Origin: Kiloniellales bacterium
GTDB taxonomy: Bacteria > Pseudomonadota > Alphaproteobacteria > Kiloniellales > JAKSBE01
Length of the DNA stretch: 57,808 nt
Assembly (NCBI GenBank): GCA_030066685.1
Contig: JASJBF010000037.1
Span: forward strand, 1-57,808
Direction: 5' to 3'
The notes beneath the pieces were generated by a model. It saw only the letters and a list, made by a program, of their open reading frames with translations, did not search any database and had not been told where the DNA came from. This document shows positions 28,322-47,326 of this stretch, in pieces; the stretch's first letter is position 1; every line of letters starts with the position of its first letter. Position numbers and translations under genes: made by a program.

Positions 28322-28388
28322 TTTCTCAAACTGCGGCTTGAAGTCGCGCGCGAAGCGGTCGATCCTCAAGCCCTGGGGATGGGGCCCT

Positions 28389-33029: not shown

Positions 33030-33092
33030 TGCCACGATAGCCAGCCGCATCGGACCGCCGACGGTCACGCCGTGCCGCTTGGAGGAATTGCA

Positions 33093-33794
33093 ATGAGTGG
33101 AGGTTCGGGCAACGTCGTCACGAAACTGGTCGATCGCGTGTTCCCACGCATGCCGGACTTCTACGGCCTGATGAACGACCAGTGCGATCTCCTCGTGACC
33201 GCAATGGAGGAGTTCGTCGAATACATGCGCACTGGCGACCCTAACACCGGCAAGCAGATCGCGAGTGTTCTGGAGAAGCAAGGCGACGAGCTGAAAAGGC
33301 GCAATTTGCGGGTCCTCAACAAGGCCTTCGCCACGCCGATGGACCGCGAGGAAATCTATCGTGCGATCGAAGGCATCGACCACGTCCTAAACTACGCCAA
33401 GACCACGGTGCGCGAGATGGAGGCATTCGACGTCGAACCGGACGGCCACACCCTCGAGATGGCCATCCATCTGAAGGATGGATCCCAAGCGTTGCAAGCG
33501 GGCTTCCGCAAGATCGCCACCGCGCCAGCGCAGGCCGAGTCAGATGCCCAAGCCGCACGCAAGGCTGAGCGTCAGATCGAGAAGTGCTACCGCCGAGCGC
33601 TGGCCGAGCTTCTCAAGGCCGAGGCCTACCACGCTGAGCTACAGGAGAAGAGCGGTGGCACCGGCACGGATGCGCTGCGCTGCATGACCGAGATCCTGAA
33701 GCGGCGCGAGATCTACCGCCACCTGTCGAACGGCGGCGACCGCTTGGCGCACACGGGACAGACCCTGCACGACATCATAGTCAAGATCGCCTGA
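33093..33794 (+). CDS. DUF47-family PhoU-like Pit accessory protein
   Basis: ATG 33093 follows a TTGGAGGA ribosome-binding site and gives 233 aa. The all-alpha protein matches DUF47: KLVDRVFPRMPDFYGLMNDQC at the start, acidic motifs (KQGDELKRRN; REEIYRAIEGIDHVLNYAKTT) that bind metal in PhoU-like folds, and ILKRREIYRHLSNGGDRLAHTG at the end. It is thought to regulate the neighbouring Pit transporter. The gene is directly downstream of pit. Confidence 0.9.
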   Translation: MSGGSGNVVTKLVDRVFPRMPDFYGLMNDQCDLLVTAMEEFVEYMRTGDPNTGKQIASVLEKQGDELKRRNLRVLNKAFATPMDREEIYRAIEGIDHVLNYAKTTVREMEAFDVEPDGHTLEMAIHLKDGSQALQAGFRKIATAPAQAESDAQAARKAERQIEKCYRRALAELLKAEAYHAELQEKSGGTGTDALRCMTEILKRREIYRHLSNGGDRLAHTGQTLHDIIVKIA

Positions 33795-34224
33795 GGCTCG
33801 GCTTCTGATTGGATGGCCTGATGGCGCGTGCCATCGGCATCGCTCCCTGGCGGCGCAAGCCAAATGCGACGCCAAGTGGGATCATCGAGACGCGGGCGGA
33901 AGTTGCCAAAGCACTTGAGGCCGACATCGTGACCCGAAACGGTCCGTTGGGTGGATCGGGTAAATGACTGCTTCGTGGTGATCTGGTTTACCGCTGAATG
34001 CTTTGAGGGGAGAACCTCAGCTTGGGAAGATGTTGATGTACTTCGTCCACCGAATAGCCAGCTCAGATTTCGAGCTCATCGTGTGTCTGAGGTTGCCACT
34101 GCACCCGTAGGCCACCCTCGATCCCGACAACTACGGGTCAAAACCACAAACCGCCACCTACCCGACAATAAACCGTTTGCCAATAGCCAGGCTCAACGCC
34201 CATTCGCCAGTTTGCTTTTCTTAT
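33795..34224. other. 430 bp after DUF47 gene; no convincing gene
   Basis: A 48-codon frame (33821-33967, starting MARAIGIAPWRRKPNATP) is the best candidate, but it lacks a ribosome-binding site or a family match. The remainder has mixed codon bias and leads into an IS3 relic, so it probably contains decayed mobile DNA. Confidence 0.45.
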
Positions 34225-34440
34225 GCTCCTCGAGTTCATTCAACCCGGTAAGCTCGCATAAGACGTCTTCATCGAGCGATTCAACGGCAGCTACCGTGAC
34301 GGCGTTGTCTATATCTGGGCCTTAATTGTCCTCGACCAAGTCTGAGAAGAGACTGAGCAATGGCTGGGAGAGTGCGATACGGTGCGCCCGTACGAATCAC
34401 TCGGGGACATCTCTTTCAATTGCCGTGGACTTGGAGAATC
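34225..34440 (+). pseudogene. IS3-family transposase (OrfB) C-terminal remnant
   Basis: One frame reads LEFIQPGKLA, a stop, DVFIERFNGSYRDGV...LIVLDQV, a stop, EETEQWLGECDTVRPYESLGD. This is the C-terminal part of the IS3 integrase core, including the conserved final E in ERFNG and the RPYESLG end. Two in-frame stops and the absence of the rest of the gene show that it is a fossil. Confidence 0.75.
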
Positions 34441-34458
34441 TCTACCTATGCCGAGACC

Positions 34459-34500
34459 TAGAGCAGCCTGCGTTCATTCGAACGCAGATGAGCTGCTCTA
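34459..34500. repeat. Palindrome next to IS3 relic (short member of a pair)
   Basis: A 42-bp palindrome: TAGAGCAG / CTGCTCTA ends and CTGCGTTC-ATTC-GAACGCAG core. The TAG...CTA ends and its pairing with a longer hairpin 11 bp away match the design of the palindromes around katG. Confidence 0.85.
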
Positions 34501-34511
34501 TCTGGATGAAA

Positions 34512-34567
34512 TAGATCAAGTTATCTGCGCTCAATTGATTCCGATTGAGCGCAGATAACTTGATCTA
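34512..34567. repeat. Perfect 24-bp inverted repeat next to IS3 relic (long member of a pair)
   Basis: Two 24-bp arms (34512-34535 and 34544-34567) are perfectly complementary around the 8-nt loop TGATTCCG. They begin TAGATCAAG and end CTTGATCTA. Such a perfect long cruciform is rare by chance and indicates a recent or selected element. Confidence 0.9.
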
Positions 34568-34668
34568 GTATGGGGCAGTGAACACAACGACTTTGCTATA
34601 ATCGACACGGTTCAGATCGGGCCCGGCGTGTGTCGTATTGCTTTCTGTGGTGAGCCATCGGACGGCAT

Positions 34669-35979
34669 TCAGGGCCGTGATGGATTTGGCAGCCGCTCAT
34701 CTCGTTTAGTGCGGCCTGGTAACTCTGGCTCGGGATCCTCGGTGGCGGCGGGTCGCACGCGCCTAATCGTCACCCGGTCTATCCGCCGCGGCGATGCCTC
34801 GGAAATCTTCACCTCCAGGCCATCAATAGTAAAGACGGCGTCTTTCTCGGGAATCGAGTCGGTGCGGGTCAGGATCCAGAGACTCACCGTATCGGTGGGC
34901 TTACCCGGGAGGTCGAGGTCGAAGTAATCCTCAACGACGCGTAGCTCTGTAGATCCATCGACGGCTAGCTCGTGCTCGGAAACCCTGGTCGCCATGGTCT
35001 GTGCAATGTCACTTTCGTCGTAGATCTCACCCACCAGCTCTTCGAGGAGGTCTTCGAGGGTCACGATGCCCCTGATCACGCCATGTTCATCCACGACGAT
35101 GGCAAGGTGGCGCCTGTTTCGCAGCAGTTTCGAGAACAACTCGTCAATGCCCTGGAATTGGGAGACAAACAAGGGGTCGTGGGCGATCTCGTCGAGCCGT
35201 GCACTGACCCGGCCGTCGGCCACCGCGGTGAGCAGATCGCGCAGATAGAGTACCTTGTAGAGGTTGTCTCGATTTTCATCGTGAAGTGGAATGCGTGTGT
35301 AGGAGCCTTCTGCCACGAGAGGCAACGCTTTGGTGACCGTCTTGCTTCCGTCGAGCGAGAAAACGTCGCCATGGGGCGTCATTACGTCCCGGACCTTGAG
35401 GTCATGAAACTCGAACACGCGCTCGATGATTTCGCGCTCGCCCTGGTCTATCGTGCCCTCCCGCTCCCCGTGCCCCAGCATGCTGATCAGCTCTGACTCG
35501 GTAATCGTAGGGTCGCTCTTTGCGCCGGTTCGCTCGTGTACCCAAGTGGTGAACCTGCCGAACAGCCAGACGAGCGGATAAATCAAGCGCATGAAGGCGA
35601 GCATTGGTGGCGCGATGGTGAGCGAAATCCGCTCCGAGTACCGAGTCGCGAGACTCTTCGGCGTTATTTCGCCGAAGACCAAAATCATAATGGTCAAAAC
35701 GCCGACCGCGACGCCAGGGCCCGCGTTGCCGAACCATCTCGATGCAAGAACCGTCGCCATGACCGATGCAGCGATGTTCACGACGTTGTTTCCGATCAAT
35801 ATCGTCGTCAGCATCCGAGAGGGGTCTCGCTTCAGCTGATGCAGGGCGCGCGCGCCCCGCCGGCGCTCCTTGACGAGACCCTCGACCCGACCGATCGACA
35901 GGTCCACCAAGGCCGTCTCCGAGCCGGAGAACACGCCGGAGAGGATCAACAGCACCAGCAATACGAAGAGCTCTGTCAT
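34669..35979 (-). CDS. CNNM/HlyC-CorC family protein (DUF21 + CBS pair + CorC_HlyC)
   Basis: The 436-aa protein has a DUF21/CNNM membrane domain (residues 1-170, LILSGVFSGSETALVDLS start and NVVNIAASVMATVLA), two CBS domains (about 190-315, with VRDVMTPHGDVFSL and IVVDEHGVIRGIVTLEDLLEELVGEI) and a C-terminal CorC_HlyC domain. Family members export or regulate Mg2+/Co2+, sensing nucleotides through the CBS pair. It stands alone, with 380 bp of non-coding sequence upstream. The codon bias is weaker than that of the betaine genes. Confidence 0.92.
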   Translation of the reverse strand: MTELFVLLVLLILSGVFSGSETALVDLSIGRVEGLVKERRRGARALHQLKRDPSRMLTTILIGNNVVNIAASVMATVLASRWFGNAGPGVAVGVLTIMILVFGEITPKSLATRYSERISLTIAPPMLAFMRLIYPLVWLFGRFTTWVHERTGAKSDPTITESELISMLGHGEREGTIDQGEREIIERVFEFHDLKVRDVMTPHGDVFSLDGSKTVTKALPLVAEGSYTRIPLHDENRDNLYKVLYLRDLLTAVADGRVSARLDEIAHDPLFVSQFQGIDELFSKLLRNRRHLAIVVDEHGVIRGIVTLEDLLEELVGEIYDESDIAQTMATRVSEHELAVDGSTELRVVEDYFDLDLPGKPTDTVSLWILTRTDSIPEKDAVFTIDGLEVKISEASPRRIDRVTIRRVRPAATEDPEPELPGRTKRDERLPNPSRP

Positions 35980-36359
35980 GGATTCAGCCGACCGCTCTCT
36001 CGATCACGGGCCAGCCGTCTGACCCGCCCCCACGGAATGGTTCCACGCGCTAGTTTAGACCTTCGGCAGCGTGGCGGAAGCGTCGATCGGTCTGGAGCCC
36101 GTCCGGAGCGCGAGACAGATCGACGCGGTGGTGCTTGATGGTCTCCGGCGCTGAGGGCAGACAGTCCGAAAGGGTCAGACTCGGACCTCGTCGGATTCGG
36201 CAGTTAAAGTCTGCTTCTGGGCCGTCATCGGACGGCTCTCGGGCATTGTCCTTTTGTGAGTCCATGACCTAGTCTGGCCGGCGAGCCATCGGGGGCTTGG
36301 GCGGCCTGCCTGTCCGGGGACCCGCCGATGGGATCCGCCGCAGCGAGACTTCCGCAGGC
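35980..36359. other. 380-bp divergent intergenic region; nothing recognised
   Basis: This region lies between the divergent CNNM/CorC gene and the unrecognised 261-aa gene. A 71-codon minus-strand frame exists, but it shows no motifs or ribosome-binding site and I do not call it. Confidence 0.45.
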
Positions 36360-37145
36360 ATGAAGATCTTCCACCGTATCGGGATCAATCCGGACGAGGT
36401 TCAGCGCCGGGCGTTTCAGGCCGCGGGCGTGGAGCTGGAAACGGGCTTCGGCGTCTTCAGGATCGCCGAGGCGGATCCGCGCTGGCCCCAGGTCGAGGCC
36501 CTGGTCGAGCGATACAGCCTGCCGGACTTCGCGGAGACCAGGTTCACCGAGGCCGAGAAGCGCCGGGCGGACTACCTCAGCATGGGGCCGACTTGGCACC
36601 ACGGCTATCCGGAGCCGTCGGAGGACTTCGGCTATCTGAGCCGGACCTATGACCTGTTGGACTATTGCGCCGGCTGCGGGATCGGCAAGCGCCAGGCCGC
36701 GCCCTTCCGCTTCAAGACGGCGCCCAAGTGGGGACGCCAGGTGATCCTGCAGCTGAACTGGATCTTCGACGAGTACTTCGTGGAGCCGAGTTTCTGGCGC
36801 CGGGTGCTGGAGCCGCTCGGCATCGGGGTCCGCCCGGTGGTCCTGGATCGGAGCGGAGAGGCGCTGGACTCCGTGCTGCAGCTGGTTATTCCCGCCGGCC
36901 CCGGGCTTGACCTGGACGGCAGGCCGGTCGAGACCTGTCCGCTCTGCCGGCGCGAGAAGTACCTGCCGATCACCCGGGGGTTCTTTCCCGCGCCCGAGGA
37001 CACGGACGCGCTCCTCTTCAAGTCGGCGCAGCTCTTCGGCAGCGGGGCGAGCGCGGAGCACGGCGTCCTGGTCTCGAACGCGCTCTACCGGGCCTTCGCG
37101 GCGGAGAAGGCGAAGGGCGTAGCCTTCGCGCCCTGCGAGGCGTGA
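36360..37145 (+). CDS. Unrecognised 261-aa protein with two Cys-x2-Cys pairs
   Basis: ATG 36360 gives 261 aa with strong GC3 coding bias. I do not recognise the family. Visible features are CAGC in LDYCAGCGIGKRQAAPF, and CPLC in VETCPLCRREKYLP, which together could bind one Zn. There is also a WHHGYPEPSEDF stretch and an aromatic ILQLNWIFDEYFVEP segment. There is no signal peptide or membrane segment, so it is probably cytosolic. It has no close co-directional partner. The layout resembles immunity-like or structural hypothetical proteins, but that is not evidence of function. Confidence 0.65.
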   Translation: MKIFHRIGINPDEVQRRAFQAAGVELETGFGVFRIAEADPRWPQVEALVERYSLPDFAETRFTEAEKRRADYLSMGPTWHHGYPEPSEDFGYLSRTYDLLDYCAGCGIGKRQAAPFRFKTAPKWGRQVILQLNWIFDEYFVEPSFWRRVLEPLGIGVRPVVLDRSGEALDSVLQLVIPAGPGLDLDGRPVETCPLCRREKYLPITRGFFPAPEDTDALLFKSAQLFGSGASAEHGVLVSNALYRAFAAEKAKGVAFAPCEA

Positions 37146-37185
37146 CGGTCCGAGCCCGAAGCCGCCGGCGCGCGGGACCGGGCGG

Positions 37186-37695
37186 TCAGGGCAGCCCGAG
37201 CTCCAGGTAGCGCACCGACTTGCCGCGGTCGGCGAGCGCGGCCCGGCCGACCTCGCGGAAGCCGAGCGCGGCGTGGAAGGCGTCCGAGCCCGGGTTGGGC
37301 GGGTCGGCGTTGACCTCGCAGACGATGCGGTCGTGACCCCGGGCCAAGGCCTGGCGGAAGAGGTCGTCGTAGAGCGCCCGGGCATGGCCCCGGCCACGCT
37401 GCGCCGGCGCGACCGTGATCCGGTCGACGTAGACGAAGCGCGCGATCCGGTCCCGGAACCAGAGGAAGTTCGGGCTGTCGTAGGCGGCGTCCTGGTCGAA
37501 GGCGAGCAGGAAAGCCGCCTGCGGGTCCAGCGCCTTGGCGTAGAAGGCCGCGGCGACCAGTTCCTCAAGCCGGGGCGGGGTGAGCGGCGAGAGCTCGATT
37601 TCCTGCGCCCGGTTCAGGGCCAGCACCCAGTCGAGGTCCCGGTTTCGGATCTGTCTCGGGGCTGGGGTCGTGCCGCGGCCGGGTTCTGGCTTCAT
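37186..37695 (-). CDS. GNAT-family N-acetyltransferase
   Basis: The 169-aa protein has the GNAT acetyl-CoA-binding motif in VAPAQRGRGHARALYDDLFRQA and the closing NPGSDAFHAALGFREVG motif. It probably acetylates a small molecule or protein, with substrate unknown. The start MKPEPGRGTTPAPRQIR is reasonable, although an internal start cannot be excluded. It is convergent with the unrecognised gene at 36360. Confidence 0.82.
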   Translation of the reverse strand: MKPEPGRGTTPAPRQIRNRDLDWVLALNRAQEIELSPLTPPRLEELVAAAFYAKALDPQAAFLLAFDQDAAYDSPNFLWFRDRIARFVYVDRITVAPAQRGRGHARALYDDLFRQALARGHDRIVCEVNADPPNPGSDAFHAALGFREVGRAALADRGKSVRYLELGLP

Positions 37696-37951
37696 GGTAT
37701 GGGCGTCCGCTCGGTCAGGCCGTCTGCCATAGCAGAGCTTCTGGTGGGCTGGGAAGGAATTTGCGCCTCACCGGCCCATGCCGCCTCGGCGCCCGAGCGT
37801 GGCAAAGGTGCATTCGATCAATGAACCTGCGGCCGAGACTTCTTGGAGTAGATTTCGGTTGGGCGGGACCCCGGGGCCCGAGCCCGATCCGCTCCGACCC
37901 GACGGATCATCGCCCGACCAAGGAGCGATCCCGTTCGGGCGTCTCGGGTAA

Positions 37952-38121
37952 TACCAAGGGGCGTTGACAATGATCCATTTGATGGCGCGCGGCGGCCCGC
38001 CGGGCAGGCGCGGCCCGCGGCGCGATGCCGGCGCATCGGGCCCAGGTTCGTTCGGGGCGCGCAACGCACCCGGCGGGCAAGCAAACCCGGTCAAATGAGT
38101 CAGTATGAACGCCCCTTGGTA
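37952..38121. mobile_element. MITE-like element with 31-bp terminal inverted repeats
   Basis: The left arm (37952-37982) and right arm (38091-38121) are inverted copies matching at about 25 of 31 positions. Both have TACCAAGGGGCGTT at the outer end and ATTTGA at the inner end. The 108-bp interior is very GC-rich with no ORF. The right arm ends 4 bp before the ribosome-binding site of the downstream amidotransferase gene, so the element may supply or alter its promoter. An 18-bp match to the left end lies at 9047. Confidence 0.75.
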
Positions 38122-38138
38122 CAGGAGGAGGAGCGAAG

Positions 38139-38963
38139 ATGTGCCGTTGGTTGGGTTACGCGGGTGCGCCCGTCTATCTGGAAGAGCTGATCTCGAAGCC
38201 GGAGCATTCTCTCATCGACCAAAGCCTCGAGGCGCGTGCCGGGGCGACGACCACAAACGGTGACGGCTTCGGGATCGGCTGGTACAGCGGCCGGGAGACC
38301 CCCGGCATCTACAAGGACACTCAGCCCGCCTGGAACGACAGCAACCTTCTGGACCTGACGGCGCACATCGAATCCCCGCTGTTCCTCGCCCATGTCCGCG
38401 CGACAACGGGCTCCGCGATCCAGCGGACCAACTGCCATCCCTTTCGCCACGAGAAGTGGCTCTTCGTCCACAACGGCCTGATCCGCGACTTCGACAGGGT
38501 CCGGCGGGACCTGGCGCTGGCGGTCGCGGCGCCGCTGTACCCGAAGATACTGGGCACCACCGATTCGGAGCTCCTGTTCTATCTCGCCCTGACCTTCGGC
38601 TTGGAGACCGACCCTCTGACCGGACTCGCCCGGATGGCGGGTCTTGTCGAGAGGGTCTGCGCAGAGCACGGAATCGAGCATGCCATCCAGCTCAGCGTCG
38701 GGCTGTGCGACGGCGAGCGCTTGCTGGCGGTCCGCTATTCGACGGAGCGGCGGTCGCGCACTCTGTTCCACAGCAAGAGCATGCGGGCGCTGCAGGAGAT
38801 CCAGCCGGACCTGAAGCGGTTCCCGCCCGACGCCCGCGTCGTCGTCTCCGAGCCGCTCTCGGACCTGACGGACGAATGGGAGGAGATTCCGGAGTCGACG
38901 GCGATCCTCGTTCAGCGGGACGAGGTCGAAAGGCAGGCCTTCGAGCCGCAGCCGCCCGATTGA
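38139..38963 (+). CDS. Class II glutamine amidotransferase (YafJ/EgtC-like)
   Basis: The 274-aa protein begins MCRWLGYAG, placing the catalytic Cys at residue 2, exposed after Met removal. Other glutaminase-site motifs are all present: FLAHVRATTGSA, NCHPFRHEKWLFVHNG and GTTDSELLFYL. Family members release ammonia from glutamine, or act as gamma-glutamyl hydrolases as EgtC does in ergothioneine synthesis. There is no Egt cluster here, so the substrate is unknown. The ribosome-binding site (AGGAGGAGGAG) lies directly next to a MITE-like repeat. Confidence 0.88.
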   Translation: MCRWLGYAGAPVYLEELISKPEHSLIDQSLEARAGATTTNGDGFGIGWYSGRETPGIYKDTQPAWNDSNLLDLTAHIESPLFLAHVRATTGSAIQRTNCHPFRHEKWLFVHNGLIRDFDRVRRDLALAVAAPLYPKILGTTDSELLFYLALTFGLETDPLTGLARMAGLVERVCAEHGIEHAIQLSVGLCDGERLLAVRYSTERRSRTLFHSKSMRALQEIQPDLKRFPPDARVVVSEPLSDLTDEWEEIPESTAILVQRDEVERQAFEPQPPD

Positions 38964-39026
38964 TGGCAGGCTCGCGCGCGGGCGGTCCAGGTCGCCGCCT
39001 CGGGGCCCTCGGCGAGCCGTTGATGG

Positions 39027-39104
39027 TGGCGGCGGGTGAGGGAGTCGAACCCCCCGGCCTCCTGAGTCAGAGTCAGGCGCTCTGGCCAACTGAGCTACCC
39101 CGCC
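39027..39104 (-). tRNA. tRNA-Gln(CTG), unit 21 (last) of the tRNA array
   Basis: The cloverleaf reads from GGCGGGGTAGCTCAG to an encoded CCA. The anticodon loop CTCTGAC (anticodon CTG) sits on stem CCTGA/TCAGG, with a T-loop TTCGACT. One acceptor pair (7-66) is mismatched. Confidence 0.85.
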
Positions 39105-39105
39105 T

Positions 39106-39181
39106 TGGTGTGTCCCCGAGGACTCGAACCTCGTTCTTCCGGGCTTCGGCCGGACGTGAGCACCCGCTTCACCAGAGACAC
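39106..39181 (-). tRNA. tRNA-Phe(GAA)-like gene with C33, unit 20 of the array
   Basis: Acceptor GTGTCTC/GGGACAC, D-stem GTGA/TCAC, anticodon stem TCCGG/CCGGA and T-stem CGAGG/CCTCG all pair, and CCA is encoded. The anticodon loop is CCGAAGC, so position 33 is C rather than the near-universal U and position 37 is G. The sequence is unlike ordinary bacterial tRNA-Phe. Isotype from anticodon only. Confidence 0.7.
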
Positions 39182-39188
39182 CCTGGCT

Positions 39189-39279
39189 TGGTGGAAGGGG
39201 GGAGGAGTCGAACCCCCAAGGCCGTCTAAGGCTCGCCGGTTTTCAAGACCGGTGCAGTCGCCAATCTGCTTGCCCTTCC
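39189..39279 (-). tRNA. tRNA-Ser(TGA), unit 19 of the array
   Basis: The 91-nt class II tRNA has acceptor GGAAGGG/CCCTTCC, loop CTTGAAA (anticodon TGA), a long variable arm (GAGCCTTAGACGGCCTT region), T-loop TTCGACT and encoded CCA. Confidence 0.9.
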
Positions 39280-39300
39280 CCAGTACCCCCATCAAGGGTC

Positions 39301-39377
39301 TGGTGCCAGCGGTAGGAGTCGAACCCACAACCCCCCGAGTCTGAGTCGGGTGCGTCTACCAATTGCGCCACGCTGGC
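39301..39377 (-). tRNA. tRNA-Leu(CAG) lacking the long variable arm, unit 18 of the array
   Basis: Acceptor GCCAGCG/CGCTGGC, a Leu-type D-arm (GCGCAATTGGTAGACGC), loop CTCAGAC (anticodon CAG) and encoded CCA. Only about five nucleotides (GGGTT) separate the anticodon stem from the T-stem, so it is a class I shape. Normal tRNA-Leu is class II. Confidence 0.8.
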
Positions 39378-39391
39378 CCGTCCCGCGTTCT

Positions 39392-39466
39392 TGGAGGACC
39401 CGGCAGGATTCGAACCTGCATGCTGCGGATTAAAAGTCCGCCGTCTCCCCATCGAACCACGGGTCC
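39392..39466 (-). tRNA. tRNA-Lys(TTT), unit 17 of the array
   Basis: Loop CTTTTAA (anticodon TTT) on stem GCGGA/TCCGC, acceptor GGACCCG/CGGGTCC, T-loop TTCGAAT, encoded CCA. It is closely similar to the Lys(CTT) unit at 39551, suggesting local duplication. Confidence 0.85.
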
Positions 39467-39473
39467 GTATGTC

Positions 39474-39549
39474 TGGTCGCGGTGGAGGGACTCGAACCCC
39501 CGACTCCATCCCTTATGAGGGGACGGCTCTGCCGCTGAGCTACACCGCT
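39474..39549 (-). tRNA. tRNA-Met(CAT) type, unit 16 of the array
   Basis: Loop CTCATAA (anticodon CAT) on stem GTCCC/GGGAT, with a standard D-arm (TAGCTCAGCGGCAGAGC) and encoded CCA. It lacks the three G-C pairs of the initiator anticodon stem (GGG/CCC). It could be an elongator Met or a lysidine-modified Ile(CAT) tRNA. Pair 1-72 appears mismatched. Confidence 0.8.
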
Positions 39550-39550
39550 C

Positions 39551-39625
39551 TGGAGGACCCGGTGGGATTCGAACCCACATGTCGCGGATTAAGAATCCGC
39601 CGCTTCCCTGTCAGGCCACGGGTCC
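39551..39625 (-). tRNA. tRNA-Lys(CTT), unit 15 of the array
   Basis: Loop TTCTTAA (anticodon CTT) on stem GCGGA/TCCGC, acceptor GGACCCG/CGGGTCC, T-loop TTCGAAT, encoded CCA. One base separates it from the Met unit. Confidence 0.85.
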
Positions 39626-39644
39626 TCAATATCTCAACTCCCTT

Positions 39645-39721
39645 TGGAGCCCCGGGCCGGCCACGATCCGGCACCACCGGGATACAAAGCCGGCGTTCTG
39701 CCCGCTTAAACTACCGAGGCT
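39645..39721 (-). tRNA. tRNA-Thr(TGT)-like, degenerate, unit 14 of the array
   Basis: Loop TTTGTAT implies anticodon TGT on a stem with one mismatch (CCGGC/CCCGG). The T-stem GCCGG/CCGGC is intact, but its loop is ATCGTGG instead of TTCRANY. The 3' end and discriminator are ambiguous. It is possibly a decaying or highly diverged tRNA. Confidence 0.5.
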
Positions 39722-39728
39722 CGATCAC

Positions 39729-39803
39729 TGGCGCCCTAGCGGGGAGTCGAACCCCGATCTCCGAATCGACAGTCCGGTATCCTGGCCGTTGAACGACTAG
39801 GGC
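39729..39803 (-). tRNA. tRNA-Asp(GTC), unit 13 of the array
   Basis: Acceptor GCCCTAG/CTAGGGC, loop CTGTCGA (anticodon GTC), T-loop TTCGACT, discriminator G and encoded CCA. The D-arm (TCGTTCAACGGCCAGGA) resembles that of the Glu units of the array. Confidence 0.85.
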
Positions 39804-39824
39804 GCGCCACAGGGGCCTTCGTCT

Positions 39825-39911
39825 TGGCGGATGGGGGAGGGATCGAACCTCCGTCACCTTACGGTGGCCACGGGTTAGCAACCCGGCGCATTACCGCTCT
39901 GCCACCCATCC
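39825..39911 (-). tRNA. tRNA-Ser(GCT), unit 12 of the array
   Basis: Acceptor GGATGGG/CCCATCC, loop TTGCTAA (anticodon GCT), long variable arm CACC-GTAA-GGTG, T-loop TTCGATC and encoded CCA. It is a typical class II tRNA-Ser. Confidence 0.9.
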
Positions 39912-39918
39912 GGTATTT

Positions 39919-39993
39919 TGGGCGACCGGGTGGGACTCGAACCCACAACCTCCCGGTTCGAAGCCGGGGACTGTGCCGCTTCAGCTTCCGGTC
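39919..39993 (-). tRNA. tRNA-Arg(TCG), unit 11 of the array
   Basis: Loop CTTCGAA (anticodon TCG) on stem CCCGG/CCGGG, T-loop TTCGAGT. The 3' end reads GCCCA rather than a clean N-CCA, so the exact ends could shift by one base. It is similar to the following Arg(GCG) unit. Confidence 0.8.
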
Positions 39994-40001
39994 GTCGCAT
40001 C

Positions 40002-40076
40002 TGGCTGACCCGGCAGGACTCGAACCTGCAGCCGCCGGCTTCGCAGGCCGGTGCTGATCCCTTCAGCTTCGGGTCA
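40002..40076 (-). tRNA. tRNA-Arg(GCG), unit 10 of the array
   Basis: Loop CTGCGAA (anticodon GCG) on stem CCGGC/GCCGG, acceptor TGACCCG/CGGGTCA, T-loop TTCGAGT, encoded CCA. Bacteria normally read CGC with the inosine-containing Arg(ACG) tRNA, so a GCG anticodon is unusual. Confidence 0.82.
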
Positions 40077-40077
40077 C

Positions 40078-40151
40078 TGGTACTCGGCGGGAGATTCGAA
40101 CTCCCATGTCGGGCCGTGTAAGGACCTTGCTTCCCCGTCAGCCAGCCGAGC
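40078..40151 (-). tRNA. tRNA-Val(TAC), unit 9 of the array
   Basis: Loop CTTACAC (anticodon TAC) on a stem with one mismatch (AGGTC/GGCCC), acceptor GCTCGGC/GCCGAGT, T-loop TTCGAAT, encoded CCA. One base separates it from the Arg(GCG) unit. Confidence 0.8.
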
Positions 40152-40180
40152 GCTCTTCCATGTTCTCCTTCTCATTCAAA

Positions 40181-40219
40181 CCATCGAAACTGGCCATCGA
40201 AACTGGCCATCGAAACTGG
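40181..40219. repeat. Three perfect 13-bp tandem repeats beside tRNA-Glu(TTC)
   Basis: The unit CCATCGAAACTGG is repeated three times without change, and the last TGG is the CCA end of the Glu(TTC) tRNA. On the tRNA strand each unit therefore starts with CCA. It probably arose by slippage and affects only the trailer. Confidence 0.9.
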
Positions 40220-40293
40220 CGCGACGGGTGGGATTCGAACCCACGTCCTCCGGATTGAAAATCCGGGGTCCTAGGCCGCTAGACGACCGTCGC
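40217..40293 (-). tRNA. tRNA-Glu(TTC), unit 8 of the array
   Basis: Acceptor GCGACGG/CCGTCGC, loop TTTTCAA (anticodon TTC) on stem CCGGA/TCCGG, T-loop TTCGAAT, discriminator G and encoded CCA. It is nearly identical in its arms to Glu(CTC) at 40488. Confidence 0.9.
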
Positions 40294-40294
40294 C

Positions 40295-40380
40295 TGGTGG
40301 ACCATCAGAGAATCGAACTCTGCCGACAGCGATCTTGCAAAGATCGCCCGCGGACCCAGCGCATCGCCCAAGTTAAGTCC
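40295..40380 (-). tRNA. tRNA-Ala(TGC)-like with abnormal 5' half, unit 7 of the array
   Basis: The anticodon arm (CGATC-TTTGCAA-GATCG, anticodon TGC), the T-arm (TTCGATT loop) and the 3' acceptor with encoded CCA are good. The 5' half does not form a normal D-arm and the 5' acceptor pairs only over the first five positions. The unit is about 10 nt too long. It is probably a pseudo-tRNA or a rearranged gene, and the 5' end is uncertain. Confidence 0.5.
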
Positions 40381-40487
40381 TCACATAATCCGTCGATAAC
40401 CCATGTCTTTAGCCGACAGTTCGGCCATATTCCGTCAAAGTTTACCCCTCGGCGGCTCGAACATATCGCCCGCGGTTTCTTACGTTG

Positions 40488-40564
40488 TGGAGCGACGGAT
40501 GGGATTCGAACCCACGTTCTCCTGCCTGAGAAGCAGGGCTCCTAGGCCGCTAGAGGACCGTCGC
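40488..40564 (-). tRNA. tRNA-Glu(CTC), unit 6 of the array
   Basis: Acceptor GCGACGG/CCGTCGC, loop TTCTCAG (anticodon CTC) on stem CCTGC/GCAGG, T-loop TTCGAAT, encoded CCA. It is a duplicate of the Glu(TTC) unit with a different anticodon stem-loop. Confidence 0.9.
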
Positions 40565-40566
40565 AT

Positions 40567-40642
40567 TGGAGCGGTGCATCGGAGTCGAACCGATACCCTC
40601 TGGGTGGAAGTCAGAGATGCTGCCATTGAACACCAGCACCGC
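40567..40642 (-). tRNA. tRNA-Gly(TCC), unit 5 of the array
   Basis: Acceptor GCGGTGC/GCACCGC, D-arm GTGTTCAATGGCAGCA, loop CTTCCAC (anticodon TCC) on a stem with one A-C mismatch, T-stem ATCGG/CCGAT, encoded CCA. Confidence 0.85.
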
Positions 40643-40648
40643 TTCGTT

Positions 40649-40723
40649 TGGGGTGGCGCGGGGAATCGAACCCTCGCTTTGACGTCCACAAGGTCACGTG
40701 CTGCCACTGACACTAGCGCCACC
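40649..40723 (-). tRNA. tRNA-His(GTG), unit 4 of the array
   Basis: The extra 5' G (G-1) opposite discriminator C73, the identity mark of tRNA-His, is present: GGTGGCGC / GCGCCACC followed by CCA. The loop is TTGTGGA (anticodon GTG) on a stem with one C-C mismatch. The T-stem is partly unpaired. Confidence 0.8.
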
Positions 40724-40730
40724 GTCGTGT

Positions 40731-40808
40731 TGGTCTGGGCACTTGGATTTGAACCAAGGACTTCCTCCGTCCGAGGGAGGTGCTCTGGCCAGGCTGAGCT
40801 ACACCCAG
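40731..40808 (-). tRNA. tRNA-Pro(CGG), unit 3 of the array
   Basis: Loop CTCGGAC (anticodon CGG) on stem CCTCC/GGAGG, D-arm TAGCTCAGCCTGGCCAGAGC, T-loop TTCAAAT, encoded CCA. The acceptor is CTGGGTG/TGCCCAG. Confidence 0.88.
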
Positions 40809-40809
40809 T

Positions 40810-40884
40810 TGGTCGTCGGTCCCGGACTCGAACCGGGATCATTCGCTGATCGGGCGAAGGTCCTACCGCTTGGACGAACCGACA
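40810..40884 (-). tRNA. tRNA-Ile(GAT)-like gene with C33, unit 2 of the array
   Basis: Acceptor TGTCGGT/ACCGACG, D-stem GTCC/GGAC, anticodon stem TTCGC/GCGAA and T-stem CCCGG/CCGGG all pair, with encoded CCA. The loop is CCGATCA: anticodon GAT with C at 33 and C at 37, both unusual. The D-arm resembles the Glu units, suggesting anticodon change after duplication. Confidence 0.7.
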
Positions 40885-41012
40885 GTGCCTTTGTATCTCC
40901 TTTCCGCCTCTCGGCTTTCGTCGTCTTCTCCCCGCCGGACGGGCGAGGCCGGGACCAGGCCTCTTTAAGCTCCCTCCCGGGAGCACCCCGGATCTCTTTG
41001 GCACGCCTGTCT

Positions 41013-41089
41013 TGGCTCCCCGGCCAGGCTTCGAACCTGGAACGGCCGGATTAACAGTCCGGCTCCCGTACCCACCGGGACCCCGGGGA
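41013..41089 (-). tRNA. tRNA-Asn(GTT), unit 1 (first) of the array
   Basis: Acceptor TCCCCGG/CCGGGGA, loop CTGTTAA (anticodon GTT) on stem CCGGA/TCCGG, T-loop TTCGAAG, discriminator G and encoded CCA. Its 5' end lies 3 nt after a terminator-like hairpin. Confidence 0.88.
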
Positions 41090-41092
41090 ACG

Positions 41093-41120
41093 AAAAAGCC
41101 CCGCTCTTTCGGGCGGGGCT
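41093..41120 (-). terminator. Intrinsic terminator hairpin directly upstream of the tRNA array
   Basis: On the minus strand an 8-bp stem AGCCCCGC/GCGGGGCT with an 8-nt loop is followed by TTTTT. The T-tract ends 3 nt before the 5' end of tRNA-Asn, leaving no room for a separate array promoter, so any array transcript from upstream must read through this hairpin. Confidence 0.75.
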
Positions 41121-41147
41121 CCAAGAAGACAGCTGTGGTGTTCGCTG

Positions 41148-41285
41148 TTATCCGATGGAGTCCCCCCGCGCGGCGTTTTCGACGCCGGACAGGACGCGCA
41201 GCCGCGAGTCATGGCGCGCGTCGGCGGCCGGGAAGCGGCTTCCCGCCGGGCGCGGCGTCACGAGATATGTCGCGGTCTGTTTCAT
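41148..41285 (-). CDS. 45-aa ORF in the leader of the tRNA array
   Basis: ATG 41285 is preceded by GAGGA at good spacing, and the frame runs 45 codons to TAA at 41148. The peptide starts MKQTATYLVTPRPAGSRF, is basic, rich in Arg and Ala, and has no membrane segment. It lies between a promoter-like site and the terminator hairpin that precedes the tRNA array. It could be a real small protein, a leader peptide, or a fortuitous frame. No family is recognised. Confidence 0.4.
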   Translation of the reverse strand: MKQTATYLVTPRPAGSRFPAADARHDSRLRVLSGVENAARGDSIG

Positions 41286-41312
41286 CACTGGTCCTCGAAA
41301 ATTCGGATCGTT

Positions 41313-41341
41313 GATTTAGGCTTTTTCGATTCGATAGTCAA
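41313..41341 (-). promoter_or_regulatory. Promoter candidate for the leader ORF and tRNA array
   Basis: On the minus strand TTGACT (41341-41336) is followed by a 17-bp AT-rich spacer and TAAATC (41318-41313) as a weak -10. This is the best promoter-like site upstream of the 45-codon ORF and the array. Confidence 0.4.
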
Positions 41342-41567
41342 GGCCTAAGTCGATTTGCTGCGGGAATTTGTCCGGCCAGCCGGACCCAAAGGTCTCGGCG
41401 ATATGAATTCTTTGCCAGCCAAGTCTTTGATTGCCGCGCCGAAGCTCGTGGGCGGGCGCCCGGAGCCCGGGTCTCCCCTCTTCCGGGTCTCGACACCCGA
41501 GCCGTTGCAATTTCAGCTCAGGTTACCAGCTCTACAGCCGGGCCAAGATTCACGGAGGAAGCGCACC

Positions 41568-41732
41568 ATGGCGCTTGCGGAAACCGCTCTCGGACGACGG
41601 CGCCTTCGGCTCGTCGTGCTGGCCGCTGCCGTCGCGGCCTTTGTCGCCGGCTGCTCCAACGATCCCGAACGCAAGAGTAACCTGAGCCCCTACAACACCA
41701 CCTTCGGCCGCGGTCCCAACAGCTGGCGGTAG
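41568..41732 (+). CDS. Small lipoprotein (54 aa)
   Basis: ATG 41568 follows the ribosome-binding site GGAGGA. The 54-aa product has a basic N-terminus, a hydrophobic stretch (LRLVVLAAAVAAFVAGC) with lipobox VAGC, and a short tail SNDPERKSNLSPYNTTF. It is a typical tiny outer- or inner-membrane lipoprotein of unknown role. It is transcribed away from the tRNA array leader. Confidence 0.6.
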   Translation: MALAETALGRRRLRLVVLAAAVAAFVAGCSNDPERKSNLSPYNTTFGRGPNSWR

Positions 41733-41858
41733 CCGGAGCCGGACGGCATCGGCCGCGTGGTGCGGTCTCATCGGCCCTCACGGCCCCCGGGGGGGCACAA
41801 TTCTAGCGGCAGCTGACCCCTTTCGAAGATCCTGGGGACATCGCCGTGTCGTGCGGAG

Positions 41859-42797
41859 TCACCCGCGCCCAAAGGCCGCGCTGGTGACCTCTGCGGTCCG
41901 CTTCCGGTAGGCCTGCATCGCGGCTCTGGCGAGAAGCTCCCGCGCCCAGCGGTGCGAGCGCCCGGTCTGCTTTCTCGGATGCCAGATCAGCGACATGGAG
42001 ATCGCTTCGAGCGGAATGGGCAGTTCGTGAACCGAAAACTCCTCGCCAAGGCGAGAGGCCATCCCTCTCGGGAAGAGCGAGACCAGGTCCGTTACGGCGA
42101 CGACGGCGGGCACGGCGTTGTAGCTGGTGACCGTCAGGCGAATGTCGCGGATTTGATCCTGCGCCTCGAACGCCCGGTCGACGCGGCTCCTGCCTTCTGT
42201 CCCGGTCGGCGTAACCCGCAAATGCGCGCAGGCCGATAGAGCTTCCTTGGTGAAGGGCTCCCTATCCATGGGATGGCCCCGTCGCATGACGCAGACGAAG
42301 TCCTCCTCGAACAGCTTTCGCATGCGCAGGGCTGGCGGGGCCAGAAACGCCGGCAGTATGGCGAAGTCCAGGCTCCCTTCATCGAGTGAATGCGCCAGCC
42401 GGTCGAGGGCGAGCGGTTGCATGAACAGCCGCGTCCGTGGGGCTTCCTCCGCCAAGATGCGCATGACGCTCGGCAAGAGGACCGAGTGGGTGAAATCGGA
42501 GGCCTCGATCCGCAGCTCCAGCTCGTCGGTGGCGGGATCGAAGGCTGCGGTCTCGCGCTCGAGCGCCTCCACCGTGGCAATGATCTTCCTGGCCTCGACG
42601 AGGACCTCCTCGGCCCGTTCGGTGGTCGCCAGGCCGCCGCCGGAGCGAACGAAGAGGGGATCGTCGAAGGCCTCTCGGATCTTGCGCAGCGTCGCGCTCA
42701 TCGCCGGCTGCGTGATATGCAGGCGCCGCGCCGCGCGCGTGACGCTGCGCTCCTCCGCGATAGTCACCAGGGCCTTGAGCAGCCGGAGTTCAAGCAT
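41859..42797 (-). CDS. LysR-family regulator (NodD/LeuO-like group)
   Basis: The 312-aa protein has an N-terminal helix-turn-helix (LVTIAEERSVTRAARRLHITQPAMSATLRKIRE) and a substrate-binding domain with the FDPATDELELRIEASDFTHS start seen in LysR proteins of the NodD/LeuO/PnbR type. It is divergent from the small secreted-protein gene at 42927 and may control it. An AT-rich stretch (ATTTATGCTATGTATTAAGAC) just upstream of its start suggests a promoter/operator. Confidence 0.87.
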   Translation of the reverse strand: MLELRLLKALVTIAEERSVTRAARRLHITQPAMSATLRKIREAFDDPLFVRSGGGLATTERAEEVLVEARKIIATVEALERETAAFDPATDELELRIEASDFTHSVLLPSVMRILAEEAPRTRLFMQPLALDRLAHSLDEGSLDFAILPAFLAPPALRMRKLFEEDFVCVMRRGHPMDREPFTKEALSACAHLRVTPTGTEGRSRVDRAFEAQDQIRDIRLTVTSYNAVPAVVAVTDLVSLFPRGMASRLGEEFSVHELPIPLEAISMSLIWHPRKQTGRSHRWARELLARAAMQAYRKRTAEVTSAAFGRG

Positions 42798-42926
42798 ACA
42801 AGATCATTTATGCTATGTATTAAGACTATGGATTTTGTTTATATACCGATCCGTGTGACCTTCAACCCGCACCGGGAGCAACTCGACCGGTGGCGCTAGG
42901 ATCAACACGGAGCGAGAGGTCTTCTC

Positions 42927-43346
42927 ATGCCCTACCCGAAACCGACGCTGATCGCACTGATCGGGGCAACGATGCTGTTCAACGGCCCGCCGGCCTCCGC
43001 GGAGACTGCGGAAAAGCTGACCGGACAGCAGGTCGAGGGCTATCTCAAGGGCAACACCGTCTATGTCGACATCGTGCCGGACGGGCCCTTCGGCAAAGGC
43101 GGACTGTCACCTTTCTACTACGGACACGACGGGCGCTTCGCGGCCCGCATGCCGAACGGCCGGATCTCCGGCAGCTGGAAGCTGTCGGACACCGCCAGCT
43201 ACTGCATCGACATCGTCGAGCACGGCAAGACCTATTGCACGGACGTCTTCAAGACCCCGACGGCGATCGAGCACCACAGCGTCGGGCTGAAGACCCTGAT
43301 GGGGCCGGTCAGACGGATCGTGCCCGGAAACGACGCCGATCTTTAG
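42927..43346 (+). CDS. Small secreted protein, possibly DUF995-like
   Basis: The 139-aa protein has a signal peptide (MPYPKPTLIALIGATMLFNGPPASA). A compact domain follows: QQVEGYLKGNTVYVDIVP, then FYYGHDGRFAARMPNGRISGSWKLSDTASYCIDI and GKTYCTDVF. The conserved glycine-rich gate, G-x-W centre and two cysteines resemble the DUF995-type secreted beta-barrel proteins found in Alphaproteobacteria. The function is unknown and the family call is tentative. It is divergent from a LysR regulator. Confidence 0.6.
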   Translation: MPYPKPTLIALIGATMLFNGPPASAETAEKLTGQQVEGYLKGNTVYVDIVPDGPFGKGGLSPFYYGHDGRFAARMPNGRISGSWKLSDTASYCIDIVEHGKTYCTDVFKTPTAIEHHSVGLKTLMGPVRRIVPGNDADL

Positions 43347-43905
43347 GGCGTTCGGGGGCAGTTTGCTTGTCTGCGGCCCAGCGTCGGCCGGCGAGGGCCT
43401 GCGGTCTTCGAGTTCCGTGGAGGCAGGGCAGTGGGCGAGAGCCTGGGCCGCGATCGTATCGGAGTCCGGAAAAGCTACTCTGTTCCCGCATTTCCAAACG
43501 GCTAGGTTTCTGGACTGCACGCCGTGACTCAGCCACGGGGTGCAGCCCAAACCCTGACCCCGTCGCCCGTTGCACCCACTGCCATCCAGGCGCCTATCTT
43601 GCCACGCTTGGCATGACCCGTGTTGCTTCAGACCTCGGTGCTCATGCCGAGGTTCGGCCGAGCCTCGCTGACACCCTCGCACCCAATCGACGGGCTCATT
43701 GGACCTCATTCCAGGAATTGAAACGCCCTGTCCCGTCTTCCGATGTTTGCCTTTTTTTGGGTTGTTTGCTCCTTGGCGTGTGAGAACCTGATTTCTGCCT
43801 GACGACTTTGGGGGTATATCCGGAGTACGTTGGACAAGGTGCCCTGGCCCAACTGGCGGCGGGTGGCCGGTCCGTCGAGAGGGTGGAGCTTGGAGAGGAC
43901 CAAAG
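43347..43905. other. 559-bp region without a convincing gene
   Basis: Frames on both strands here are short, with no ribosome-binding sites, signal peptides or known motifs. A T-rich patch (CCTTTTTTTGGG, about 43751-43762) stands out from the GC-rich background. The region may carry the promoter of the downstream lipoprotein and decayed sequence. Confidence 0.45.
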
Positions 43906-45729
43906 ATGGCGAAAGAAGCAGCACGCATCCTGCTGCGGGCGAAGGCCGATGCGGCCCCGCGAAGTCGTACCGGCATTGCCAGGAGCCAAGCGACCGGAAA
44001 AATCTGGCTGGGCCGACTTGTCGGAGCGGTGGCATTGTCGCTCGTGGCGACCTCCTGCACCGCCCCGGGTTCCGATGAGTTTGCGCCGGTATACCTCGAG
44101 GGCGCAGACGGCGGGTTGCAGGCGCAGATCATCGGGCGTCGTGACGGTGGCTTCTTCGGCGAAAGCGCCGCCAGCACGCCGCCCGCCTACCACGCGGAGC
44201 GCCGATGGCTCTATGTCATCGCCTTGCCGCGCCTGTCCATCGAAGTGCTCGATATCAGCGATCCGACCCGCCCCCGGCTGGTCAATCGGATTGGCTATCT
44301 CCGGTTCGTGCAAGCCTTGCTCTTCGATCCCTCTCGCCGCGCCGAAGCCGAGCGCGTGCAGCGCCTCGACGAGCCGACGCGCAACATAGAGCTACCGCGG
44401 CTTATCGGAGAGATTAAGGGCGTTGCCTTCGCCGACGGCGTCCTCGCGGTGGCGTTCAAGGCCCTGCAGGAAAACGAACGCGGGCGCGTGCTGTTCCTCG
44501 ACGAGTTCGGCGCCCCCATCGCCGACCCGGTGTCGGTCGGCATCGATCCGGATGCGATCGCCTTCTCGCCGGACGGGCGGAAACTCGTGGTCGCCAACAC
44601 CGCTACCGGCGAGGAAGGCGACGACCCCAAGGGCAGCATCAGCATCGTCACCGTGGATCGCGACGCGGGCGGTCAGGTGACGACGGATGTTCGCCAGATC
44701 GGTTTCGAGCGGTTCGACGGCCAGGCGGCTCAACTGCGCAGCGAGGGGGTCCGCATCTACACGCCCGGATCCACCGTCGCACAAGACCTCGAGCCGGAGT
44801 CGGTGGCGATCTCGCCCGACGGTTCGACGGCCTATATCGGTTTCGTTCGCAACAATGCCTTCGCGACCGTCGATCTGACCCTCGAAACGGTGGTCGACAT
44901 TCACGGCTTGGGCACGCGCGACTTCAACGTCGCGGGGCAAGGGATCGATGCCAGCGACCAGGATGGCGAGATCGCCATCCGGCCCTGGCCGGTGTCGGGC
45001 TATTTCTCGCCCGATGGTATCGGCGTCCTGCCGACCGGCGGTGCGCTCCATGTGGTGACCGCGAACGAGGGCGACCCCCGCGACTTCGAGGATGCCCGGG
45101 TTGCGGGCTTGACGCTCGATCCCACCGCCTTCCCGGATGCCGCCGACCTGCAGCGACCGGAGAACCTGGGCCGGCTGCGGATCACCCGCGTCGAGGGCGA
45201 TCCGGACGGCGACGGCGACTACGACCGGCTTTTCACCCTGGGCACCCGTTCCTTCGCCATCTGGAGCCGCGACGGCCGGCTTGTCTTCGACAGCGGTGAC
45301 GACTTCGAGCAAAGGACCGCCGAGGCCGTTCCGGCCTTCTTCAACACGCCCGACGACGTCAACCGCTTTGACGGGCGCAGCCCTGATCGCGGGCCGGAGC
45401 CGGAGCCCCTTGCGGTCGGTAAAGTCGGCGATCGCTGGTACGCCTTCGTCGGCTTCGAGCGGATCGGCGGGATCATCGCCTACGATGTCACCGAGCCCAC
45501 GGCGCCACGCTTCGCCTTCTACCTCAACAACCGCGACTTCACCGTCGATCCGGCCGCCGTCTGCCAGCGCGACACCGTGAAGACGCCGGAATGCGCCGCG
45601 GTCGGCGATCTCGAGCCCGAGGCCTTGGGTTTCATTCCGGCCGAGCAGAGCCCGAACGGGGCCGCCTTGCTGGTCGCAACCCACGAGCAGACGGACAGCG
45701 TCCTCCTGCTCCAACTCGACCCCAAGTGA
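43906..45729 (+). CDS. Choice-of-anchor I-type beta-propeller lipoprotein (607 aa)
   Basis: ATG 43906 follows GAGAGGA. The N-terminus is long and basic and then has a hydrophobic segment ending LVATSC, a probable lipobox. The body has repeated WD/YVTN-like beta-propeller blades: LYVIALPRLSIEVLDISDP, GIDPDAIAFSPDGRKLVVAN, LEPESVAISPDGSTAYIGF, and VVTANEGDPRDFEDARV. The last motif is characteristic of the choice-of-anchor I / alkaline-phosphatase-like propeller family. It is probably a cell-surface or periplasmic protein. An enzymatic role is not established. It lies alone between long non-coding stretches. Confidence 0.75.
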   Translation: MAKEAARILLRAKADAAPRSRTGIARSQATGKIWLGRLVGAVALSLVATSCTAPGSDEFAPVYLEGADGGLQAQIIGRRDGGFFGESAASTPPAYHAERRWLYVIALPRLSIEVLDISDPTRPRLVNRIGYLRFVQALLFDPSRRAEAERVQRLDEPTRNIELPRLIGEIKGVAFADGVLAVAFKALQENERGRVLFLDEFGAPIADPVSVGIDPDAIAFSPDGRKLVVANTATGEEGDDPKGSISIVTVDRDAGGQVTTDVRQIGFERFDGQAAQLRSEGVRIYTPGSTVAQDLEPESVAISPDGSTAYIGFVRNNAFATVDLTLETVVDIHGLGTRDFNVAGQGIDASDQDGEIAIRPWPVSGYFSPDGIGVLPTGGALHVVTANEGDPRDFEDARVAGLTLDPTAFPDAADLQRPENLGRLRITRVEGDPDGDGDYDRLFTLGTRSFAIWSRDGRLVFDSGDDFEQRTAEAVPAFFNTPDDVNRFDGRSPDRGPEPEPLAVGKVGDRWYAFVGFERIGGIIAYDVTEPTAPRFAFYLNNRDFTVDPAAVCQRDTVKTPECAAVGDLEPEALGFIPAEQSPNGAALLVATHEQTDSVLLLQLDPK

Positions 45730-46135
45730 GGAACCTGACGGCGAGCCTCAACCCCTGTCCGGTGCTCCCGCCAGACCTCGGCCGAGAGCATCCCCGGTCA
45801 GATCCCTCGCCATCGAGCTCGACGATGCCTTCGCCATTGCCGAGGCAATCGACGTCTGAACCCTGGGACGGAGCGGATACGCTCCGCTCATCCCGCTACC
45901 GCGACGGTGCAGCCAAGAGCCGTCACTCAACACGGACCTGCTCAAGCAACAATGGATGACCGCCTGGCCAAAGAGGCCACCAGCTCCAAACACAAAGTGC
46001 GAAATACTCTAGACGCTACCTACTGGCCTCGAGATTCGTCTGCGAGACTGCATATTCTGTCCCCTAAATTCTGAGAATGCATGTACTATCCCTGAAATTC
46101 CTTGCTAGCCTGAGCCGTGATTTGTGGAGCATCTG
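45730..46135. other. 406-bp region upstream of the AlbA_2 gene; nothing recognised
   Basis: The sequence shifts here from GC-rich to AT-rich, with the AT content rising after about 46000, which may mark an insertion border. No repeat flanking the following gene was found by eye. Confidence 0.45.
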
Positions 46136-47146: not shown

Positions 47147-47326
47147 AATTCCCGACAGAAAGAGAAACGTCATAATCCAAGGGTTCGCCACTTAGAAGCG
47201 CTGGACGAGACAACGCGTCTCCAATGATCTAAGTTCGTTTAACTATCACGCTGGCGAACCGGCCCGCAGATCGAGTGCCAAGCATGCGGCGGCGTTCTCT
47301 CCTAATAGCTCGCTGGTGTTATCAAT

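Follow-up and report, generated by a model that had tools for sequence, protein, structure and literature searches.

A divergent array of 21 tRNA genes beside the dispersed tRNA set of a Kiloniellales bacterium

Why an alphaproteobacterium should carry 21 transfer RNA (tRNA) genes packed into 2.06 kb is the question raised by positions 39027-41089 of the DNA analysed here, a window of 57,808 bases which is the entire contig C37 of a Kiloniellales genome. A first, sequence-only reading had described 21 head-to-tail tRNA genes on the minus strand of this segment; ARAGORN, run over the whole window, identified 21 genes at 39027-41089, on the minus strand only and with the same order and anticodons, and found no tRNA genes outside it. 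The order of transcription is Asn, Ile, Pro, His, Gly, Glu, Ala, Glu, Val, Arg, Arg, Ser, Asp, Thr, Lys, Met, Lys, Leu, Ser, Phe, Gln. The anticodons cover 17 amino acids, without Trp, Tyr and Cys, in agreement with the earlier reading. Its remark on tight spacing also held: upwards from 39105 the intergenic gaps are 1, 7, 21, 14, 7, 1, 19, 8, 21, 7, 7, 1, 65, 1, 118, 2, 7, 7, 1 and 128 bp, so that 13 of 20 are 8 bp or less and the largest three are 65, 118 and 128 bp. An encoded CCA end, said to be present nearly throughout, was found in 20 of the 21 units as called by ARAGORN, and also in the His unit if its end is moved one base further, to 40649 (by eye). Between the Val and Glu genes (40152-40216) a 13-bp unit (ccagtttcgatgg) stands in three tandem copies (by eye).

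The Rfam gathering threshold was reached by 15/21 units in a scan of the window (one of these, Ser(UGA), being labelled tRNA-Sec) and by 17/21 in a search of the genome; the Ala, Gly, Ile and Asn units stayed below it in both and are called by ARAGORN only. Folding of six units singly gave z values of -0.48 to -1.65. Firmicutes-type tRNA operons sit behind a ribosomal RNA (rRNA) operon; this attachment is a Firmicutes feature that the present array does not share, as the Rfam scan found no rRNA match in the window. A tRNA array unit has been defined as 20 or more tRNA genes lying at 2 or more per kb (PMC5966550); the density here is 10.2 tRNA per kb and the number 21 by ARAGORN but only 17 by Rfam, so that the count is program-dependent.

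The array is an extra set beside the dispersed tRNAs of the host. The genome search returned at least 62 tRNA matches, 17 in the window and at least 45 elsewhere; one of the 45 is partial and uncalled by ARAGORN, which leaves at least 44 further tRNA genes (anticodon ambiguous in two). Among these, 18 of the 21 array anticodons recur. The array as sole copy of these tRNAs, an alternative for which the sequence-only reading had allowed, is thus ruled out by the genome's own dispersed set. The anticodons of Arg(UCG), Arg(GCG) and Ala(UGC) were not among the matches listed outside the array, which also held no Trp and only one CAU tRNA; an exact pattern for Ala(UGC), the one tried, gave no host copy. 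The missing Trp and Ala(UGC) and the single CAU probably reflect gaps in the draft or the extent of the matches listed, and a host Ala(UGC) in particular may be missing from either. Ala(UGC) genes usually sit in rRNA operons, as was seen in G005, a genome from another family of the same order, where Ala(UGC) adjoins Ile(GAU).

Identity between array units and host isoacceptors had a median of 69% and a maximum of 76% (n=18 shared isoacceptors), as against a median of 92% and a minimum of 65% between host and G005 (n=27 isoacceptors), the G005 tRNAs having been taken from the best 30 of 49 matches by score, a choice which favours canonical genes. The seven-base anticodon loop differed in 13/18 array-host pairs compared to 3/27 host-G005 pairs. 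For the 13 isoacceptors present in array, host and G005 alike, loop changes numbered 10 (array-host) and 2 (host-G005); for Gln(CUG) the array loop is that of G005, and only the host's differs. Recent duplication of host tRNAs is ruled out by the median identity of 69%, set against 92% between host and G005. Odd tRNA-like genes were also seen elsewhere in the host genome (G000): two adjoining ones on contig C2 at about 256747-256893 (L025 747-894), a four-base anticodon call (cgag) and an Ile(GAU) without CCA, and one on contig C65 (L054 499-573), with a four-base anticodon call (tgca) and without CCA.

When syntenic arrays were sought in relatives, as the first reading had proposed, part of the array turned up in a second species of the genus (G002), next to the left-hand neighbours that it has in the window. 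Contig C406 of that genome carries a cut Met gene, then Lys, Leu and Ser at 89% identity, then a Tyr gene; the contig ends within Met, and any further part of the G002 array would lie off it. C406 aligns in the same orientation to window positions 27289-28321 (92%) and 28743-30590 (86%), a left flank with genes for an oxidoreductase, a LysR regulator and a dehydrogenase. By DNA similarity, among 57 other relatives a piece of the array was present in G002 only among the matches listed, other matches being tRNA-sized, and a loose Ser pattern found one record in genome contigs, JANQGU010000032.1 (a Kiloniellales metagenome-assembled genome, isolate PL23b_bin.6), identical to C406.

Between the window and G002, 17/304 sites differ in the tRNA bodies (2 gap columns), compared to 15/30 in the spacers (12 gap columns) and 66/305 third codon positions of the neighbouring dehydrogenase (Fisher P: bodies versus third codon positions 6e-9, bodies versus spacers 1e-9). 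In Leu, 4/7 differences make up two pair-keeping double changes (C:G to U:A), in the acceptor stem and the anticodon stem. A stem-pair test, which covered Lys and Leu and left out D-stems, Ser and Met, showed acceptor, anticodon and T-stem pairs all intact in both genomes. The slow change of the bodies relative to spacers and third positions, together with the compensatory pairs in Leu, indicates that the four comparable units are held under selection as tRNA. We read the locus, tentatively and at a little short of even chances, as a chromosomal tRNA array unit, a redundant and divergent second set which probably came from a mobile element or phage and has been kept in at least two species of this Kiloniellales genus.

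The array sits in a variable interval of about 16.7 kb flanked by genus-shared segments. To its right conservation returns at about 47,329 in G001 (a further genome of the genus) and G002, on other contigs; inside the interval G001 shares 30703-31660, and G002 matches weakly at 37200-37324. A Pfam scan of 30/45 candidate open reading frames (ORFs) of the 57.8 kb contig, which took in each of the 12 ORFs lying in the variable interval outside the array and in part reached down only to E 1e-8, gave no hit to integrase, phage-structural or conjugation families. In a PHROGs scan of 8 ORFs the matches were to an acetyltransferase, a glutamine amidotransferase, a helicase and families of unknown function. 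Metabolic and regulatory genes lie on both sides of the array, not the phage genes among which a phage tRNA cluster is set; the LysR regulator at 41859-42797, which matches phrog_3736 (unknown function), was taken as an ordinary regulator. The first reading had suggested a mobile or accessory translation module. Its accessory part stands, given the dispersed set and the strong divergence from it; its mobile part is unsupported, with no mobility family in the 30/45 ORFs scanned and with part of the array keeping its left-hand neighbours in a second species.

About 5 kb from the array, a gene at 46124-47146 (plus strand) encodes an SLFN_AlbA_2 domain protein and has a weak PHROGs match to a phage helicase family. 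It is probably a foreign gene, judging by its low third-position guanine-plus-cytosine (GC) content (0.49) in a GC-rich contig; a link to the array was set aside, on account of the 5 kb distance and of no defence-family match. Two dispersed-repeat families, with many copies each in G001 and G002, occur at about 37949-38121 and 34451-34570.

A foreign source of the array appears likely from its divergence from host tRNAs. By DNA similarity, which would miss arrays of unrelated sequence, and with two candidates scored per genome, 3/384 other genomes of a class sample and 1/397 of a phylum sample matched at E<=1e-12, in each case to one tRNA. In 18 plasmid records every match covered at most 5% of the array; in 371 phage records matches covered at most 6% among the 20 listed, with none at 80%, and two phage searches with part of the array gave tRNA-sized matches only. 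Exact patterns searched in viral contigs gave 0 matches for Lys, 0 for a strict Ser, 0 and 0 for the short-arm Leu and 3 for a loose Ser. The two Ser genes lean to phages. Over 91 nt, Ser(UGA) shares 87% identity with a copy on IMGVR_UViG_3300034088_000014, which also carries terminase genes and on which the copy is preceded by Arg(UCG) and Ser(GCU), compared with 76% identity to the host gene; for Ser(GCU) the figures are 82% to a gene of Kabachok, a giant Brevundimonas phage, and 74% to that of the host. On phage contig L111 (4993-5516) six tRNAs (two Arg, two Ser, Met, Thr) form a compact block near terminase genes, one of the six being found by BLAST and Rfam and missed by ARAGORN.

Several units are peculiar, some of the features having been read by eye (Table 1). 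Leu(CAG), of 77 nt, is without the long variable arm that Leu tRNAs of bacteria usually have. U73 is present in both Lys units and also in Thr and Glu(CUC), C33 in Ile and Phe, and A37 in Leu and Pro, the host counterparts of which have G37; in the array a U34 tRNA stands alone in five of the eight four-codon boxes. Elements which act as charging signals in tRNAs are retained in other places, namely G3:U70 (Ala), G-1:C73 (His), G73 (Asp, Asn), A73 with C1:G72 (Pro) and U73 (Gly).

Table 1. Array units and the interval that holds them (window positions)
Feature	Positions	Strand	Evidence and remarks
tRNA-Gln(CUG)-like	39027..39104	-	ARAGORN; nearest host tRNA Asp, 81%; G1:C72
tRNA-Phe(GAA)	39106..39181	-	ARAGORN; anticodon loop CCGAAGC, C33
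tRNA-Ser(UGA)	39189..39279	-	ARAGORN; 87% to phage-contig copy, 76% to host gene; Rfam label tRNA-Sec for array gene and phage copy
tRNA-Leu(CAG)	39301..39377	-	ARAGORN; 77 nt, short variable loop, A37
tRNA-Lys(UUU)	39392..39466	-	ARAGORN; U73
tRNA-Met(CAU)	39474..39549	-	ARAGORN; A1.G72 mismatch
tRNA-Lys(CUU)	39551..39625	-	ARAGORN; U73
tRNA-Thr(UGU)	39645..39720	-	ARAGORN; T-loop atypical
tRNA-Asp(GUC)	39729..39803	-	ARAGORN, Rfam window scan
tRNA-Ser(GCU)	39825..39911	-	ARAGORN; 82% to giant Brevundimonas phage tRNA, 74% to host gene
tRNA-Arg(UCG)	39919..39994	-	ARAGORN; anticodon absent among matches listed elsewhere in genome
tRNA-Arg(GCG)	40002..40076	-	ARAGORN; anticodon absent among matches listed elsewhere in genome
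tRNA-Val(UAC)	40078..40151	-	ARAGORN, Rfam genome search
tRNA-Glu(UUC)	40217..40293	-	ARAGORN, Rfam window scan
tRNA-Ala(UGC)	40295..40369	-	ARAGORN; D-arm reduced; G3:U70 retained, one acceptor-stem G.G mismatch (by eye)
tRNA-Glu(CUC)	40488..40564	-	ARAGORN, Rfam window scan
tRNA-Gly(UCC)	40567..40642	-	ARAGORN; below Rfam gathering
tRNA-His(GUG)	40650..40723	-	ARAGORN; CCA ends at 40649, G-1:C73 (by eye)
tRNA-Pro(CGG)	40731..40808	-	ARAGORN; A37
tRNA-Ile(GAU)	40810..40884	-	ARAGORN; C33; below Rfam gathering
tRNA-Asn(GUU)	41013..41089	-	ARAGORN; first transcribed; below Rfam gathering
Variable interval holding array	30593..47328	.	genus-shared DNA left (about 27289-30590, G002) and right (from about 47329, G001 and G002); G001 also shares 30703-31660

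Most probably the array came from a foreign source and is retained as a spare tRNA set, a safeguard against translation damage. It would be transcribed as one or a few long precursors, which the standard tRNA-processing enzymes would cut, and its tRNAs, with anticodon loops mostly unlike the host's, would go on decoding under cleavage of host tRNAs or inhibition of translation. Such a reserve fits best because the set is redundant, loop-altered and conserved where testable. We consider it unlikely that the whole amounts to a domesticated shadow set of 21 tRNAs, a nuclease-proof reserve in an alphaproteobacterial chromosome marked by non-host anticodon loops (C33 in Ile and Phe, A37 in Leu and Pro), the short-variable-loop Leu and lone U34 tRNAs in 5/8 boxes.

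A number of observations weigh against a retained reserve of foreign origin. Some units look hard to charge or use, given U73 in both Lys, the Asp-like body of Gln and C33 in Ile and Phe. The inter-species comparison covers 4/21 units, one of them partial; two further Leu differences alter T-loop bases in G002, and the host-G005 comparison leans towards canonical genes, as noted. G002 also has, near the LysR gene (L021 2748-2866), Val, Arg and Lys units fused into a vestige which ARAGORN does not call and Rfam matches at 34 bits, a sign of decay; by eye, it adjoins an apparent short direct repeat of the neighbouring gene's end. G001, 99% complete, gave 34 tRNA matches and no tRNA cluster, so the array is dispensable, and together with the G002 vestige this shows that loss and recombination are also ongoing. 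Defence families were matched by 0/7 nearby proteins. No sigma-70-like promoter was found in 38600-41900, an absence which means little in this group. Compared with 45 phage tRNAs from four loci, the nearest relative was a host tRNA for 15/21 units, a phage tRNA for 5/21 and a tie for 1, and among the 15 units with the same anticodon in host and phage the host was nearer in 11 and the phage in 4; at such low identities closeness to either may be background. Apart from the two Ser genes and some weak cases, a clear phage origin thus finds no support, the host tRNA being closer in those 15/21 units.

The array might instead be a decaying remnant, brought by a phage or conjugative element which it once served, now eroding and of no use to the host. 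This would account for the odd units (U73 Lys, C33 Ile and Phe, the reduced-arm Ala), for G001 being without the array, for the fused vestige in G002 and for surroundings that vary in the genus; we hold it to be somewhat unlikely, as the comparable units are far better conserved than spacers and third codon positions and include two compensatory pairs, and as all 21 retain a cloverleaf by ARAGORN and CCA. A supply of tRNAs for heavily used codons, speeding growth, is quite improbable. In 20 window genes the array would read 34/61 codons under standard wobble (62% of uses and the top codon for 13/20 amino acids), or 44 codons if U34 reads whole boxes (87% of uses, top codon 17/20), but 18/21 anticodons are already present elsewhere, under standard wobble Ala, Gly, Thr and Val would have their top codons unread, and G001 shows no array. 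Least probable by some way is a part of a still-mobile prophage, plasmid or integrative and conjugative element (ICE) with its remaining genes beyond the contig: arrays are described from ICEs, plasmids and phages, the interval at 30.6-47.3 kb is variable in the genus and the 46124-47146 gene has low third-position GC and a weak phage-helicase-family match, yet DNA shared within the genus lies on both sides within the contig, the left flank is shared by two species and the ORFs scanned (30/45) hold no mobility family.

The array brings the tRNA array unit to an alphaproteobacterial chromosome. For some of its units two species allow a comparison at a common site, and the pattern of change seen in these units, that of genes kept as tRNAs, bears on whether such arrays are used or left over. 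The odd units (short-arm Leu, C33 loops, GCG Arg) offer testable substrates for charging and tRNA-cutting enzymes.

In the literature covered, outside which the main survey lay, no description of a tRNA array in this lineage was found, and we do not claim that alphaproteobacterial arrays are unreported. The clusters of Brevundimonas phage Kabachok and of Caulobacter phages, giant phages of alphaproteobacteria, resemble the array in several isotypes, a similar Ser(GCU) and a reduced-D-arm Ala; the Kabachok cluster has interspersed phage genes and another order, whereas no phage genes were seen here. Anticodon-loop changes in phage tRNAs are predicted to evade anticodon nucleases, according to PMC10264068. 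The Anabaena trn operon (26 tRNAs), as described in PMC10272220, likewise adds a large array to a dispersed set of housekeeping tRNAs; otherwise silent, it is switched on by translation inhibitors and helps survival. It lies on the delta plasmid, with a known repressor and a tested function, whereas the present array is chromosomal and known from its sequence only.

Array units have been described from mycobacteria, Acidithiobacillus, a cyanobacterial plasmid and phages. The Acidithiobacillus array (26 tRNAs in A. ferrivorans CF27; ICEAfe1 in A. ferrooxidans) is also a second proteobacterial set and is considered horizontally acquired in the account of PMC5468388; it lies within islands or an ICE of about 300-325 kb, whereas no such element was seen here, and the likeness is one of description. 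The array units of Mycobacterium chromosomes, phages and plasmids are described as commonly including coding genes such as an HNH endonuclease, in contrast to a largest gap of 128 bp and metabolic or regulatory neighbours in the present case. Redundancy, usual in array units and not required of them, is found here as 18/21 anticodons shared with the dispersed set. The Mycobacterium units are alike in their 20 or more clustered tRNAs, redundant anticodons and divergence from chromosomal genes (PMC5966550, PMC12803027), and for these mycobacterial arrays, redundant and different from the chromosomal genes, a counter-defence role is suspected (PMC12803027).

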